The notes under the pieces are model-generated. The model searched no databases, had not been told where the DNA came from, and saw only the letters and a program-made list of their open reading frames with translations. Position numbers and translations under genes: made by a program. Source: Chitinophaga pinensis (lineage in GTDB: Bacteria > Bacteroidota > Bacteroidia > Chitinophagales > UBA10324). From it: 38,056 nt of DNA. The stretch lies in assembly GCA_945903305.1 (NCBI GenBank), contig CAMDOA010000020.1, positions 1-38,056 on the forward strand, given 5' to 3'. Below are positions 3,295 through 29,534 of this stretch, piece after piece; within the stretch, counting starts at the first letter, position 1; every line of letters begins with the position of its first letter.

Positions 3295-3960
3295 CTACTC
3301 CTTTACAAATCTTCTAACCTCCACATCGCCATTAGCCAATTGCACTTTAACAAAATAGATACCGGAAGAAAACAATTGACAATTGATAATGGATAATTGA
3401 GAATTGGTTGGCTGCGAATAAATTTCTCTTCCGAATACATCGGTGATGATGAGGTTGGTTGCAGTTTCTGCATTGAGTAATTGCACAGTCAACTCATTGG
3501 ATGCAGGATTCGGGAATATATTAAAATGAGATTGGTTACCAGGTTCCGTTATACTTTCAATAACCGGTATGGTGAAGCAAAGTGTATCTGTATCCAAAGC
3601 AACTACTCCGCTATCGTTTAAATTATAAAGGATTGTGTAATGACCGGGACTGAAATTGTTTCCGAGTATAAGTGTATCTGCTGAATTGCAGATAGCAGCT
3701 AGCATTCCCATCATGTGGTAGGCTTGAACAGTAATTAAAGTGTCAGTGATACTTACCGATGAATCAATCATGAAACAAGAACTATAACCAAAAGTGGCGA
3801 AACACGATACTTGTACAGTACTAGTTGTTGTTGGATTCGCAGGAATTATTTTCAAACTATCAATGAAAATCCATCCTTGGGCTTTTGTGTTTGTGGTGGA
3901 AAACACCATGAACAGTACTAGTATAATTAGAACAGTAACTGATTGAATTTTATTTTTCAT
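3295..3960 (-). CDS. Small T9SS type A cargo protein, function unknown
   Basis: A 221-residue exported protein with a signal peptide at residues 1-27 (hydrophobic core VTVLIILVLFMVF, cleavage near TKAQG). The central region of about 115 residues has two or three cysteines and a predicted beta-rich composition without a recognised domain. The last 80 residues are a clear type A sorting domain (NIFPNPASNEL through VRRFVKE). The sorting domain is closely related to that of the neighbouring gene at 4051-4623, except for the linker, which is a heptanucleotide-repeat tract (3373-3407). The ATG at 3960 is well placed. It is probably a secreted or surface-attached protein of unknown role. Confidence 0.8.
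   Translation of the reverse strand: MKNKIQSVTVLIILVLFMVFSTTNTKAQGWIFIDSLKIIPANPTTTSTVQVSCFATFGYSSCFMIDSSVSITDTLITVQAYHMMGMLAAICNSADTLILGNNFSPGHYTILYNLNDSGVVALDTDTLCFTIPVIESITEPGNQSHFNIFPNPASNELTVQLLNAETATNLIITDVFGREIYSQPTNSQLSIINCQLFSSGIYFVKVQLANGDVEVRRFVKE
3373..3407. repeat. Heptanucleotide repeat tract, CAATTGA family (5 units)
   Basis: Five consecutive 7-base units (CAATTGA, CAATTGA, TAATGGA, TAATTGA, GAATTGG) fill 35 bases of the sorting-domain linker. They encode the Ser/Gln/Leu/Ile/Asn-rich stretch NSQLSIINCQL on the minus strand. The flanking DNA aligns with the sorting-domain DNA of the next gene, where the same interval holds an unrelated heptamer family. Confidence 0.75.
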
Positions 3961-4050
3961 AGTCGTGGATTTGTGATGTATAATTATTTCAAATCAATTA
4001 ACTACGCTAAGCGTTTAATTGCTGCATGCAATTTCATTATTCGCATTCTC

Positions 4051-4623
4051 CTATTCCTTCACAAATCTTTTCACCTCCACACTCCCGTTTTGCAATTGCA
4101 CTTTAACAAAGTAGATACCTGAAGAAAAGGATTTCAGATTTATGATTTCAGATTTGAGATTGGATTGCTGCGAATAAATTTCTCTGCCTAACACATCGGT
4201 GATGACTATCGTGTTCATGATTTGATTGTTGCTGGATATGGTGAGTTGCTCCGTGGCAGGATTTGGGAAGACTGTTATCTGCATACTGCCTACTGTCAAC
4301 TGTTCTATTCCATTTACAATACTGTTGGTAGCATAGTTGGGAATAACCGCAGGGTTGTAATCGAAGAAGATAGATGCTTTGTTTTTAATTTCTGTTCCGA
4401 ATGGTAGGTTGGTTTTCACTTTTATTTTGAACATCACGAAACCCTTGCTGGCGGGTTCGTTGGTGGTGCTATCGGGGAGGAAGAGCGGATTAAAAACCCA
4501 TTTTAATATTCCGGTTCCGGATATGGTGAACTCACTGAACGATGCGCTTGATGCAAGATTCACTACCGTAGTTGGGTCGAGTGATGATGGCAGTGTATAA
4601 ATAACGATTACACTAATAAGCAA
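4051..4623 (-). pseudogene. 5'-truncated T9SS cargo gene (DUF7619-like C-terminal domain plus sorting domain)
   Basis: The open frame begins at a TTG codon and encodes 190 residues. Residues about 8-105 match the C-terminal end of the DUF7619/DUF11-like beta domain found in very large Bacteroidota surface proteins (key pieces LPDSTTNEPASKGFV and NKASIFFDYNPAV). The last 80 residues are an intact type A sorting domain. No convincing start codon, ribosome-binding site or signal peptide with a basic n-region precedes it. An in-frame stop lies about 40 bases upstream, and the next gene ends at 4690. I read it as the surviving 3' end of a larger gene. A small functional protein is possible but less likely. 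The sorting domain is a close paralogue of that in 3295-3960. Confidence 0.65.
4130..4164. repeat. Heptanucleotide repeat tract, GATTTCA family (5 units)
   Basis: Five consecutive 7-base units (GATTTCA, GATTTAT, GATTTCA, GATTTGA, GATTGGA) encode the linker NLKSEIINLKS in the sorting domain of the truncated cargo gene. The tract occupies the position of the CAATTGA-family tract at 3373-3407. The total linker length is identical (39 bases between the shared flanks GAAGAAAA and CTGCG). Confidence 0.75.
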
Positions 4624-5262: not shown

Positions 5263-7899
5263 ATGGCAGAACGAACTTCGAACAGATTAAAACCTGCGAA
5301 AGAAGAAATAGATTTGGATATTGATGATCAGTTTATGGAATTGGCCGATCAGGTTGAAGAGGAGATTGAAGAAGAAGATATGGATGAAGTGGTAGCTCCA
5401 AAAACAATAAAGAAAAAAGCAGTACGCGAAAAAAAACCTGTTGAAGAGAAGGAGAAGAAATCTAAGGAGAAAAAAGAAAAAACACCCTCTGTATTTTCCA
5501 AAACCATTCTGTTTATTCGCAGCGACCGGTTTAAAAAACTAAGTGGATTATTCTTAATGTTATTCACGGTGTTTTTGGCAGTGTCATTTGTATCCTACCT
5601 TTTTACAGGCGCGTTTGACCGATCATCTATTTATCCTTTCAGTTGGGCAATATTTTCTGATGCCACAATAAAAGCCGCTAATCACATGGGCAAATTGGGC
5701 GCCTATGTTTCGCACTTGTTCATCTGGAATGGTTACGGCTTAACCGCTTTTCTCACCTTGCCTTTTATATTTTCTTATGGAGTAAATCGTTTGTTTCAGT
5801 ATAAATTAATTCCAACTGCAAGAATTTTCAAACACTGTTTTGCACTCACAATCATTCTTGCCCCTTCATTGGCTTTCATCTTTCAGAATAGTTCATTTCC
5901 TTTCGGTGGTGCATTCGGCATTTATATAAACGATATTCTTTTGAGTTACCTCGGACAAATAGGTACCGGCACTTTAATGGCTTTCAGCATTCTGGGTTAC
6001 CTCGTGACCGTTTTTAATTTTAATTTTAAAAAGAAGGAAGCAGATACTGTTATTGATGAGAATAAAAATGAAAACGCTTATTCAATTGTAACAGCCGATA
6101 AATCAAATGCGTTTACCATAGTTCCAACTCAGGCTACTCCAGCGCTTAGTGAAGCCACCAATAAAATGAAAGCGGAAACTGAAAACGAATTTTCATTATC
6201 AAATACTTTCACCGGTGCGCCGGTTATTTCTTCTCAGGAATTAGAAGTAAATCAGGTTGAAGAAAATTATTCTGATCAAACTGATGAACCTTTAAATCCT
6301 GATTACGATGAAGATTTAGAATTAGACATAGTGGAAACACCGGTTGAAGAAATGGCTGAAGAAGTAGATAATTCTCCACTCGGTTTGTATGACCCTACTT
6401 TGGATCTGAGTAATTATAAATATCCCGAATTGGATTTATTGGAATTTTATGGAAGTGAAAAAATTAAAATTGATACTGAAGAATTAGAGCGGAATAAAAA
6501 TCAGATTATAGGCACGCTTCAGAATTACGGAATAGAAATTCAAAAAATAAAAGCAACCGTTGGACCTACTGTTACCTTGTATGAAATCATTCCGGCACCC
6601 GGTGTGCGAATCAGTAAAATAAAAAATCTGGAAGATGATATTGCTTTGAGTTTAGCGGCTTTGGGCATTCGAATCATTGCACCTATTCCCGGAAAAGGAA
6701 CCATTGGCATTGAAGTTCCGAACATCAACAAAGAAGTGGTGAGCATGCGTACTTTGCTTGCCTCAGAAAAATTTCAGAACACTACTTACGATTTACCAAT
6801 CGCACTTGGTAAAACAATCAGCAACGAAATTTTTATTGCCGATTTATCTAAGATGCCTCACTTGCTAATGGCGGGTGCTACCGGTCAGGGAAAATCAGTT
6901 GGTATTAATGCACTTTTGGTTTCGCTGTTGTATAAAAAACATCCATCGCAATTAAAGTTTGTGCTCGTTGATCCTAAAAAAGTAGAGCTGAGCTTGTACA
7001 GTATTATTGAAAAACATTTTCTGGCAAAACTTCCGGGTGAAGAGGAACCAATTATTGTTGATACAAAAAAAGTAATCAATACTTTGAAAGCACTTTGCAT
7101 TGAAATGGATATGCGCTACAATTTATTGAAGGAAGCCGGTTGCAGAACTATAAAAGAGTACAACGAAAAATTTATTTCCCGTCGCCTCAATCCAAATAAA
7201 GGTCATCGCTTTCTTCCATACATCGTTCTGGTAATTGATGAGTTTGCCGATTTGATTATGACCGCCGGAAAAGAAATTGAAACACCTATTGCACGGTTAG
7301 CACAGTTAGCTCGTGCAATAGGTATTCACTTAATCATTGCAACTCAAAGACCATCAGTAAACATTATTACAGGAACCATCAAAGCAAATTTCCCTGCCCG
7401 TATTGCATTTAAAGTTTCATCAAAAATTGATTCAAGAACTATTTTAGATACCGGTGGAGCCGATCAGTTAATTGGTCGTGGTGATATGTTGATTTCAATT
7501 AATGGTGAAGTCATTCGATTGCAGTGTGCTTTTGTTGATACGCCTGAAGTTGAAAAAGTAACCGAGTTCATTGGTCAGCAACATGGCTATCCTGATGCAC
7601 ATTTATTACCTGAAGTTATTGATGAAGAAGCTGAAGGAGGTGATGAAGGATTTAATCCAAACGAAAAAGATGAAATGTTTGAAGAAGCTGCACGATTAAT
7701 TGTTCAGCACCAGCAAGGTTCCACCTCTTTAATACAGCGCAGAATGAAATTAGGATACAATCGTGCGGGAAGATTAATGGATCAGTTGGAACAAGCCGGA
7801 GTGGTGGGCCCCAATCAGGGAAGTAAGGCGCGCGAGGTTTTAATTAAGGATAGTTACGCATTGGAACAGTTCTTGAATAACCTCGGAGAGAAAGTATAA
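5263..7899 (+). CDS. ftsK: DNA translocase FtsK
   Basis: An 878-residue chromosome-segregation translocase acting at the division septum. The N terminus is highly charged (residues 1-85). It is followed by about four membrane segments (roughly 88-250, FtsK 4TM domain) and an acidic linker (about 265-380). The alpha domain comes next, then the RecA-like motor with Walker A at residues 537-545 (AGATGQGKS) and Walker B at 655-660 (VLVIDE). The C-terminal winged-helix gamma domain (about 795-878, QGSTSLIQRRMKLGYNRAGR) normally reads KOPS-like DNA sequences. All parts are present, and the length is typical of Bacteroidota FtsK. The ATG at 5263 is the first in frame. The next gene follows after 13 bases and is probably co-transcribed. 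Confidence 0.97.
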   Translation: MAERTSNRLKPAKEEIDLDIDDQFMELADQVEEEIEEEDMDEVVAPKTIKKKAVREKKPVEEKEKKSKEKKEKTPSVFSKTILFIRSDRFKKLSGLFLMLFTVFLAVSFVSYLFTGAFDRSSIYPFSWAIFSDATIKAANHMGKLGAYVSHLFIWNGYGLTAFLTLPFIFSYGVNRLFQYKLIPTARIFKHCFALTIILAPSLAFIFQNSSFPFGGAFGIYINDILLSYLGQIGTGTLMAFSILGYLVTVFNFNFKKKEADTVIDENKNENAYSIVTADKSNAFTIVPTQATPALSEATNKMKAETENEFSLSNTFTGAPVISSQELEVNQVEENYSDQTDEPLNPDYDEDLELDIVETPVEEMAEEVDNSPLGLYDPTLDLSNYKYPELDLLEFYGSEKIKIDTEELERNKNQIIGTLQNYGIEIQKIKATVGPTVTLYEIIPAPGVRISKIKNLEDDIALSLAALGIRIIAPIPGKGTIGIEVPNINKEVVSMRTLLASEKFQNTTYDLPIALGKTISNEIFIADLSKMPHLLMAGATGQGKSVGINALLVSLLYKKHPSQLKFVLVDPKKVELSLYSIIEKHFLAKLPGEEEPIIVDTKKVINTLKALCIEMDMRYNLLKEAGCRTIKEYNEKFISRRLNPNKGHRFLPYIVLVIDEFADLIMTAGKEIETPIARLAQLARAIGIHLIIATQRPSVNIITGTIKANFPARIAFKVSSKIDSRTILDTGGADQLIGRGDMLISINGEVIRLQCAFVDTPEVEKVTEFIGQQHGYPDAHLLPEVIDEEAEGGDEGFNPNEKDEMFEEAARLIVQHQQGSTSLIQRRMKLGYNRAGRLMDQLEQAGVVGPNQGSKAREVLIKDSYALEQFLNNLGEKV

Positions 7900-8683: not shown

Positions 8684-10072
8684 ATGAACTTTGATTTGAT
8701 AGTAATTGGAAGCGGCCCTGGCGGATATGTTGCAACGATTCGTGCATCACAACTTGGATTAAAAACTGCCATAATTGAAAAAGAAAATCTGGGTGGTATT
8801 TGTTTAAACTGGGGCTGTATCCCGACAAAAGCATTATTAAAAAGTGCGCAGGTTTTTGAATACATACAACATGCATCTGATTACGGAATAACTGTAGGAA
8901 ATTCAAATGCTGATTTTAATTCCATTATAAAAAGAAGTCGTGATGTGGCTACTGGAATGAGTAAAGGGGTTCAGTTTTTAATGAAGAAAAATAAAATTGA
9001 AGTCATTAACGGAACAGGAAAAGCAATGCCTGGAAATAAAGTTGAAGTGACAGATTCAACCGGAAAAAAAACGGAATACACTGCTAAGAATATCATCATC
9101 GCAACAGGCGGACGATCAAAAGAACTTCCGAACCTGAAACAGGATGGAAAAAAAATTATCGGGTATCGCGAAGCTATGAATTTACCGTCGCAACCCAAAT
9201 CAATGGTAGTAGTTGGTGCCGGCGCCATTGGAATTGAATTCGCGTATTTCTATAATTCTATCGGAACAAAAGTTACTGTAGTGGAATTTCTGCCAAACAT
9301 TGTTCCAATAGAAGATGAAGATATTTCTAAGGAATTAGAAAAAATTTATAAAAAGAAAGGAATCAATATAATGACCAATGCCTCGGTTGAAAAAGTTGAC
9401 ACAACTGGAACAGGTTGCAAAGTCACTATTAAATCAGCAAAAGGAATTGAAGTAGTTGAATGTGATATTGTACTATCAGCAGTTGGAATTTCCACTAATA
9501 TTGAAAGCATTGGATTAGAAGCATGTGGAATTAAAACTGAAAAAGGCAAAGTTGTAGTCGATGATTTTTACCAAACAAATATGAAAGGATATTATGCAAT
9601 TGGTGATATTGTAAAAGGTCCTTCGTTAGCGCATGTTGCATCGGCCGAAGGAATAATATGCGTTGAAAATATTGCCGGAAAAAAACCGCACGCGCTTGAT
9701 TATAATAATATTCCGGGATGCACTTACTGTCAGCCTGAAATTGCATCAGTAGGCTTAACGGAAAAAGCAGCAAAGGATGCAGGGTATCAGATAAAAGTTG
9801 GAAAATTTCCATTCTCTGCATCAGGAAAAGCAAGCGCAGCAGGAACAAAAGAAGGTTTCATCAAAGTTATTTTCGATGCAAAATATGGTGAGTGGTTAGG
9901 CGCTCACATGATTGGTGCAAATGTTACAGAAATGATAGCTGAAGTTGTTGTTGCAAGAAAATTAGAAACAACTGGTCACGAAATAATAAAATCAGTACAT
10001 CCGCACCCAACAATGAGCGAAGCAATTATGGAAGCTACCGCTGCAGCTTATGGTGAAGTCATTCATTTGTAA
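8684..10072 (+). CDS. lpdA: Dihydrolipoyl dehydrogenase (E3)
   Basis: A 462-residue cytoplasmic FAD-dependent disulfide oxidoreductase that reoxidises dihydrolipoamide in the pyruvate and 2-oxoglutarate dehydrogenase complexes and the glycine cleavage system. The FAD dinucleotide motif GSGPGG is at residues 9-14. The redox-active pair Cys40/Cys45 lies in GGICLNWGCIPTK, the NAD-binding GAGAIGIEF is near residue 178, and the second FAD motif (YYAIGD) is near 305. The active-site His441-Pro442 with Glu446 is at the C terminus. All catalytic residues are present and the length is standard. lipA (16334-17218) and sucC (29565-30758) in the same window belong to the same pathways but are not in this operon. 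Confidence 0.97.
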   Translation: MNFDLIVIGSGPGGYVATIRASQLGLKTAIIEKENLGGICLNWGCIPTKALLKSAQVFEYIQHASDYGITVGNSNADFNSIIKRSRDVATGMSKGVQFLMKKNKIEVINGTGKAMPGNKVEVTDSTGKKTEYTAKNIIIATGGRSKELPNLKQDGKKIIGYREAMNLPSQPKSMVVVGAGAIGIEFAYFYNSIGTKVTVVEFLPNIVPIEDEDISKELEKIYKKKGINIMTNASVEKVDTTGTGCKVTIKSAKGIEVVECDIVLSAVGISTNIESIGLEACGIKTEKGKVVVDDFYQTNMKGYYAIGDIVKGPSLAHVASAEGIICVENIAGKKPHALDYNNIPGCTYCQPEIASVGLTEKAAKDAGYQIKVGKFPFSASGKASAAGTKEGFIKVIFDAKYGEWLGAHMIGANVTEMIAEVVVARKLETTGHEIIKSVHPHPTMSEAIMEATAAAYGEVIHL

Positions 10073-29477: not shown

Positions 29478-29486
29478 TTCAATTTA

Positions 29487-29514
29487 TTTAATTTTTAATC
29501 TTTAATATTTAATC
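29487..29514. repeat. Heptanucleotide repeat tract, TTTAATC family (4 units)
   Basis: Four consecutive 7-base units (TTTAATT, TTTAATC, TTTAATA, TTTAATC) lie in the gap between the 29013-29477 gene and sucC. This non-coding copy shows the same 7-base period as the coding tracts at 3373, 4130 and 35528 but a different unit sequence. Confidence 0.65.
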
Positions 29515-29534
29515 TCTCTTTCCACTTCTGCAAT

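Follow-up and report, generated by a model that had tools for sequence, protein, structure and literature searches.

Two neighboring sorting domains and their heptamer cassettes

The window analyzed here, the whole stretch of 38,056 nucleotides, is contig C20 of a single 3.12-Mb draft genome. It carries on its minus strand two neighboring coding regions, P0001 and P0002, that end in T9SS type A sorting domains (CTDs), each containing a tandem array of degenerate heptamers, and it holds three further heptamer arrays. The features are as follows.

3295..3960, minus strand: P0001, 221 aa, with a signal-peptide-like N-terminus, a short passenger and a T9SS type A sorting domain at residues 148-220
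3298..3519, minus strand: T9SS type A sorting domain (CTD) of P0001 (TIGR04183, E 5.9e-12)
3370..3406, minus strand: cassette A, coding strand AATTCTC AATTATC CATTATC AATTGTC AATTG
4051..4623, minus strand: P0002, 5'-truncated remnant of a DUF7619 and T9SS-sorting-domain protein, intact in the related genome G015 (L099)
4057..4272, minus strand: T9SS type A sorting domain of P0002 (TIGR04183, E 3.6e-14)
4129..4167, minus strand: cassette B linker, coding strand AATCTCA AATCTGA AATCATA AATCTGA AATCC
4279..4306, minus strand: third, weaker heptamer array, AGAACAG TTGACAG TAGGCAG TATGCAG, at the passenger/sorting-domain junction of P0002 (15/21 lag-7 matches)
29484..29517, unstranded: intergenic heptamer array of the TTTAATN family, found by TRF and by the period-7 scan and belonging to the population spread through the genome
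35526..35558, unstranded: heptamer array of the CTATTCA family, near the 5' end of a long open frame and probably ahead of its true start

The C-termini of P0001 and P0002 match PF18962 (Por_Secre_tail) and TIGR04183 with 45.9-56.1 bits, the curated cut-offs being 23 and 27. Orthologues of P0001 are present in G015 (66% identity at the amino acid level), G014 (58%) and G012 (49%). The original prediction spoke of two adjacent genes, which does not apply to the second: the DUF7619 match of P0002 starts only at profile position 38, and an intact counterpart adjoins the P0001 orthologue in G015, a member of the same genus, so that P0002 is a 5'-truncated remnant. In both copies, exactly 39 nt separate the shared flanks GAAGAAAA (3365-3372 and 4121-4128) and CTGCG (3412-3416 and 4168-4172), and both linkers (3373-3411 in P0001, 4129-4167 in P0002) are in frame. 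The linker of cassette A, which is built of AATTRTC-type units, codes for residues 184-196, PTNSQLSIINCQL; cassette B, built of AATCTGA-type units, codes for (QS)NLKSEIINLKS in an identical register. TRF reported a period of 7 at both places, with 5.0 copies (ACAATTG) at 3372-3406 and 4.6 copies (GATTTCA) at 4130-4161. The sequence and TRF thus confirm that two neighboring sorting domains carry different heptamer arrays of equal 39-nt length with the frame kept. The claim of five heptamers in each needs correction; period-7 arrays are present, but on the coding strand each consists of four full units plus 5 nt.

The position of the cassettes within the domain was assessed on an AlphaFold2 model of P0001, in which most of the CTD has a pLDDT above 90 and the remaining protein is poorly modelled. 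Residues 146-220 form seven strands in this model, giving the seven-stranded Ig-like sandwich seen in translocon-bound sorting domains, and the best structural matches of the modelled CTD are 8gl6 and 8gl8, which are T9SS CTDs bound to the translocon. Residues 189-193 are modelled as a β-strand preceded by a turn; since residues 184-196 cover both, the cassette segment is predicted to be a turn plus a strand rather than a loose linker. The spacing between the GR motif and GxY is most commonly 23 residues (26 of 106 domains in this genome). It is 23 in 19 of 22 array-bearing hairpins over all genomes examined, an excess that we set aside as statistical evidence, since the entries tested are not independent of one another. 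A single register is common to all 25 array-bearing hairpins, which place Ile-Asn codons at the Ile-Asn of the domain consensus, and cassettes A and B both keep the Ile-Ile-Asn position. Because of this modal spacing, the fold and the shared Ile-Asn register, the equal length, frame and register have an explanation at the protein level, and, judging from the model, the fold accounts better than exchange for the identical length and register. The original prediction took the identical length and the kept frame as marks of a swap; both observations stand, but length and register are set by the fold of the sorting domain and do not in themselves testify to exchange. Accordingly, equal length was rejected as a sign of exchange, 23 residues being the modal hairpin spacing set by the fold. 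The common register of A and B was likewise rejected as proof of common descent, both cassettes placing Ile-Asn codons at the conserved strand position.

Period-7 arrays within and beyond the genome

We scanned 1.203 Mb, or 39% of this genome, and about one third of G015 for period-7 arrays, defined as stretches of at least 28 nt in which 17 or more of 21 positions match at a lag of 7; order-3 Markov shuffles served as the null for the array counts. The comparison of 7-base periodicity with shuffled sequence, which had been proposed as a check, gave a strong enrichment, with 44 arrays in the 1.203 Mb and none in the shuffles. Period 7 was the commonest of the periods tested (4-16), the others being period 14 (31 arrays), period 8 (20), period 16 (17) and the remainder with at most 10 each. 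The arrays fall into several unit families (CAATTGT, GATTTCA, TTTAATN, CTATTCA, AACTGTT, CTGCCTA, ACTGNNT and others), and many of them have zero ORF cover. Sorting domains were counted by a TIGR04183 profile search of the genome, which lists 150 matches to T9SS type A sorting domains (CTDs). Nine of the 44 arrays lie inside sorting-domain spans, which account for 2.6% of the sequence and would be expected to contain 1.1 (P 1.5e-6). Within the 106 domains used for the period analysis, period 7 occurs at two sites only, namely the hairpin ahead of the conserved GxY (4 domains at ≥17/21 lag-7 matches) and the passenger/domain junction (11 domains at ≥15/21). No period-7 arrays were found in the upstream control zone of these 106 domains, and each of the other periods from 5 to 11 occurs in at most one of them. 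As one part of the joint reading that we favor below, we consider it probable that most heptamer arrays are intergenic and that those in coding sequence sit mainly within secretion signals.

The junction arrays are of several unit families and lie directly ahead of the FPNP motif, for example at C5:61933, C8:52252 and C27:16226 of this genome. Heptamer arrays also contribute codons to signal peptides at the N-terminus or to lipoprotein signals, such as FFIIYHLSFSCSAQ and LLLLLAQLSIINYQLSIVFAQ; such signal-coding arrays lie at C1:55847-55878 and C4:3816-3853 of this genome, at C5:58723-58755 of G015 and at L319:1693-1724 (minus strand).

The fate of orthologous arrays was followed by comparing this genome with G015, to which it is linked by 338 reciprocal best hits with a median identity of 82%. 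Most testable arrays stay in place with point changes (C7:19495, C5:30626, C12:17389, C2:117093, C8:52252), and the intergenic array at C1:41702-41735 differs from its G015 orthologue by a clean 7-nt, one-unit indel, a single case and between species. A few arrays are present in only one of the two genomes or cannot be aligned. The intergenic array at C12:17389 had appeared to be absent from G015, a candidate that we rejected as a threshold effect, the alignment showing conservation. The hairpin of the C27 gene has no array in this genome and an AATCTGC array of equal length in G015, and the junction segment differs too; this gene is a second cassette-like case. The proposed check of orthologues for cassette-like as opposed to gradual change thus gave a divided answer, most of the divergence consisting of point changes and indels of one unit and a few changes being cassette-like. 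Because most orthologous arrays diverge in the former way, exchange is not frequent, and on these sequence comparisons cassette exchange appears to be real but not common.

The AATTRTC family extends well beyond this genome. Allowing at most 2 mismatches, it was found in 33 of 395 Bacteroidota genomes, compared with 1 for the reversed control, and a GTDB scan returned at least 120 stretches. The matches listed include Bacteroidales, Flavobacteriia, Sphingobacteriia, Cyanobacteria, Clostridia, a Sumerlaeota bin and a Treponema bin, a breadth to which contamination may contribute because many of the listed genomes are metagenome bins. Among the GTDB matches listed, 105 of 130 AATTRTC arrays lie outside called ORFs. 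Short tandemly repeated repetitive (STRR) sequences are a feature of filamentous cyanobacteria; the cyanobacterial matches listed here (Sphaerospermopsis, Anabaena and Oscillatoriales) form a set defined by the AATTRTC pattern and not by published STRR units. AATTRTC cassettes are also found in frame within CarB, RecG and PurL, at L292 (Oscillospiraceae), L307 (Treponema bin) and L279 (Bacteroidaceae). Relative to the E. coli enzyme, the CarB cassette is a 13-residue loop insertion; the RecG cassette is in frame, and the insertion is not cleanly placed in the PDB alignment.

Relationships and probable origin of cassette A

Loci for the comparison of cassettes were found through pattern and protein searches. 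Cassette A is 92-97% identical over 36 nt, variant order included, to hairpin arrays in G015:C11, G014:C10, C2:114679 of this genome, G011:C2 and G012:C203, with the proviso that pattern searches favor high linker identity and leave the flanks unselected. The flanks in these pairs are only about 44-72% identical, and the host sorting domains are unrelated. Against its own paralogue and its orthologue, P0001 is 89% identical in the upstream flank and 47-50% identical in the linker; its downstream flank is 83% identical to the paralogue and 65% to the orthologue. In orthologous sets (G011C9/G012C351/G015C64 and ownB/G015B), linker and flanks diverge at similar rates. Because orthologous cassettes diverge about as their flanks do, 97% identical cassettes between strongly diverged flanks point to transfer of the cassette only. 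At the P0001 linker, G015 has a decayed array of the AATCTGA type (NQNSEIINIKS) and G014 reads SKSVTINLES, and G015 retains the linker of P0002 (SLKSEIINLKS, 92% identical); by parsimony, cassette A is therefore probably the derived state in P0001.

The combination of unit variants seen in cassette A occurs in 8 of 8 exact pattern matches among the loci of the family, some of which are one locus fetched twice. Elsewhere it occurs in 1 of 130 AATTRTC-family arrays among the matches listed, that one being a long array outside sorting domains. We built a tree of 23 array-bearing sorting domains with the cassette left out (61 columns, mostly weak forks). Types A and B interleave on it, with 6 type changes compared with a mean of 6.8 after shuffling, and a single clade for A is rejected (p-AU 0.0004), so that cassette type is not congruent with the domain tree. 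In G012, three cassettes lie within C203:6535-11243, one of type B at 6535 and two of type A at 8779 and 11215, and at least the first two are in related sorting domains. A supported pair of the tree on this contig combines the two types, one per domain, as in the window, and the upstream spacing differs there. The original prediction that one array had replaced another, as opposed to point divergence, holds for 3370-3406, which is 92-97% identical to arrays in unrelated domains and 47-50% identical to its own paralogue and orthologue and is of a type that does not follow the domain tree.

A passenger-less sorting-domain remnant with a near-copy of cassette A lies at about 114679-114707 of C2 in this genome.

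We consider it probable, as a joint reading, that heptamer cassettes became codons of the turn and strand of the sorting domain, that they belong to a genome-wide population of degenerate heptamers of the STRR or long-simple-sequence-repeat kind, and that the cassette of P0001 was replaced by short-tract copying. On the line leading to this genome, an A-type copy from another sorting domain would have replaced the P0001 cassette over some 36-40 nt, a possible donor being the lineage of the remnant at C2:114679 or its relatives. The route would be short-tract, non-reciprocal copying, by gene conversion or template switching, that starts within the repeats and a handful of conserved adjoining bases; such an unusual short-homology route would be needed because ordinary homologous recombination does not work on flanks as diverged as these (40-70% identity). 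Under the proposed selection, only exchanges that keep the spacing and the Ile-Asn codons at the conserved strand position would survive, which would account for the same length, frame and register.

The main rival to short-tract copying, which we regard as unlikely, is that whole sorting domains were exchanged by homologous recombination and that the flanks then diverged faster than the cassette. Sorting domains are indeed many (the 150 matches listed) and paralogous, and because the downstream flank of P0001 is nearer to the paralogue (83% vs 65%), some domain-level conversion probably occurs. However, orthologous cassettes and flanks diverge alike, 97% identical cassettes in flanks of about 55% do not result from uniform divergence, and the upstream flank of P0001 stays with its own paralogue and orthologue, only the linker having changed. 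Convergence would instead start from the strand consensus Ile-Asn-Leu, which is near one or two heptamer units, and let slippage and point mutation build arrays independently. The B unit AATCTGA does code for parts of the consensus INLxxL, the fold sets register and length, and the 7-nt indel at the intergenic array shows a single-unit change between species; yet the variant order of cassette A is rare elsewhere in the AATTRTC family (the 1 of 130 among the matches listed), the identity extends to synonymous sites and the periodicity reaches codons beyond the consensus motif, which makes an independent origin distinctly unlikely.

Two further explanations concern what drives the cassettes. A dedicated mobile-element machinery might insert them at many loci, with sorting domains as tolerant targets, and the occurrence of the AATTRTC family in Bacteroidota, Cyanobacteria, Clostridia and a spirochaete bin, together with the in-frame cassettes in housekeeping genes such as CarB and RecG, is in line with this. 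We hold it to be very unlikely, given that the arrays and flanks read showed no terminal repeats, target-site duplications or enzyme, that the change in the sorting domain is length-neutral and that this genome and G015 mostly have their arrays at the same inherited positions. Selection of cassette diversity for a function, such as recognition of particular cargo by the translocon or variation of the surface, would fit with a segment that, in the model, codes for a whole β-strand of the sorting signal. This explanation is hardly plausible, as the Ile-Ile-Asn position is identical in both cassettes, orthologous cassettes change largely at synonymous sites and one of the two copies in the window sits in the gene remnant P0002.

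A more far-reaching reading, which we put forward tentatively and consider possible but doubtful, is that heptamer cassettes are cross-phylum micro-mobile DNA with a copying process of their own, which repeatedly overwrites or enters coding sequence in frame and is kept most often in T9SS sorting domains and signal peptides. If so, the cassettes would be mobile, as the original prediction proposed alongside recombination, and a repeat family would supply ready-made structural codons for secretion signals. Bacterial heptamer repeats have been on record for decades, and to our knowledge there is no agreement on how they move or on what role they have. Here the repeats sit at a fixed place in a domain of known structure that is present about 150 times in the genome, and exchange can for this reason be read against flanks and fold. 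The question of how heptamer repeats move becomes directly testable by strain comparison, and the locus offers a case of a repeat that supplies codons of a secretion signal.

Comparison with known heptamer repeats

The original prediction that there is no established account for Bacteroidota stands only in part. TAACTGA heptamer repeats have been described from Beggiatoaceae, Cyanobacteria and five Bacteroidetes species (MacGregor 2015, PMC4679880); no account was found in the open-licence literature of T9SS sorting domains whose structural codons are heptamer cassettes, or of the exchange of such cassettes. Like the arrays studied here, the TAACTGA repeats are heptamer direct repeats with a patchy distribution over the same phyla, accompanied by further heptamer repeats in the same intergenic regions, and a role in rearrangement has been suggested for some (PMC4679880). 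They differ in having one unit sequence and lying mostly upstream of start codons, and we found no description there of coding cassettes or sorting domains. GGGAATC and GGGGATT heptamer repeats are known from Xanthomonas and Nostoc (PMC4692102, which also cites three tandem heptanucleotides of Calothrix). These too are degenerate, commonly of about four units, and vary in length and sequence between relatives at conserved gene pairs, but they are G-rich, potentially quadruplex-forming and mostly intergenic (PMC4692102).

Both host domains in the window are members of the T9SS type A sorting-domain family (PF18962/TIGR04183), and the fold, as modelled for P0001, matches the solved translocon-bound domains, with the difference that the strand-coding segment is here a heptamer-repeat cassette. 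Rickettsia palindromic elements are in-frame selfish repeats in coding genes. They resemble the cassettes in being short repeats in frame at tolerant sites of protein-coding genes, but they are longer and palindromic, and they are neither heptamer tandem arrays nor length-neutral replacements. Heptamer repeats as such are known from cyanobacteria, Xanthomonas, Nostoc and Beggiatoaceae; coding cassettes in T9SS sorting domains are, as far as we found, apparently new. The likeness to cyanobacterial STRR sequences drawn in the original prediction is borne out: in both cases degenerate 7-base units form head-to-tail arrays of several unit families per genome, enriched, scattered and mostly intergenic, and by pattern match the AATTRTC family is found in Cyanobacteria as well. 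In contrast to the STRR sequences, the arrays described here are short (4-5 units), some of them serve as in-frame structural codons, and they appear to have been exchanged between paralogous domains.
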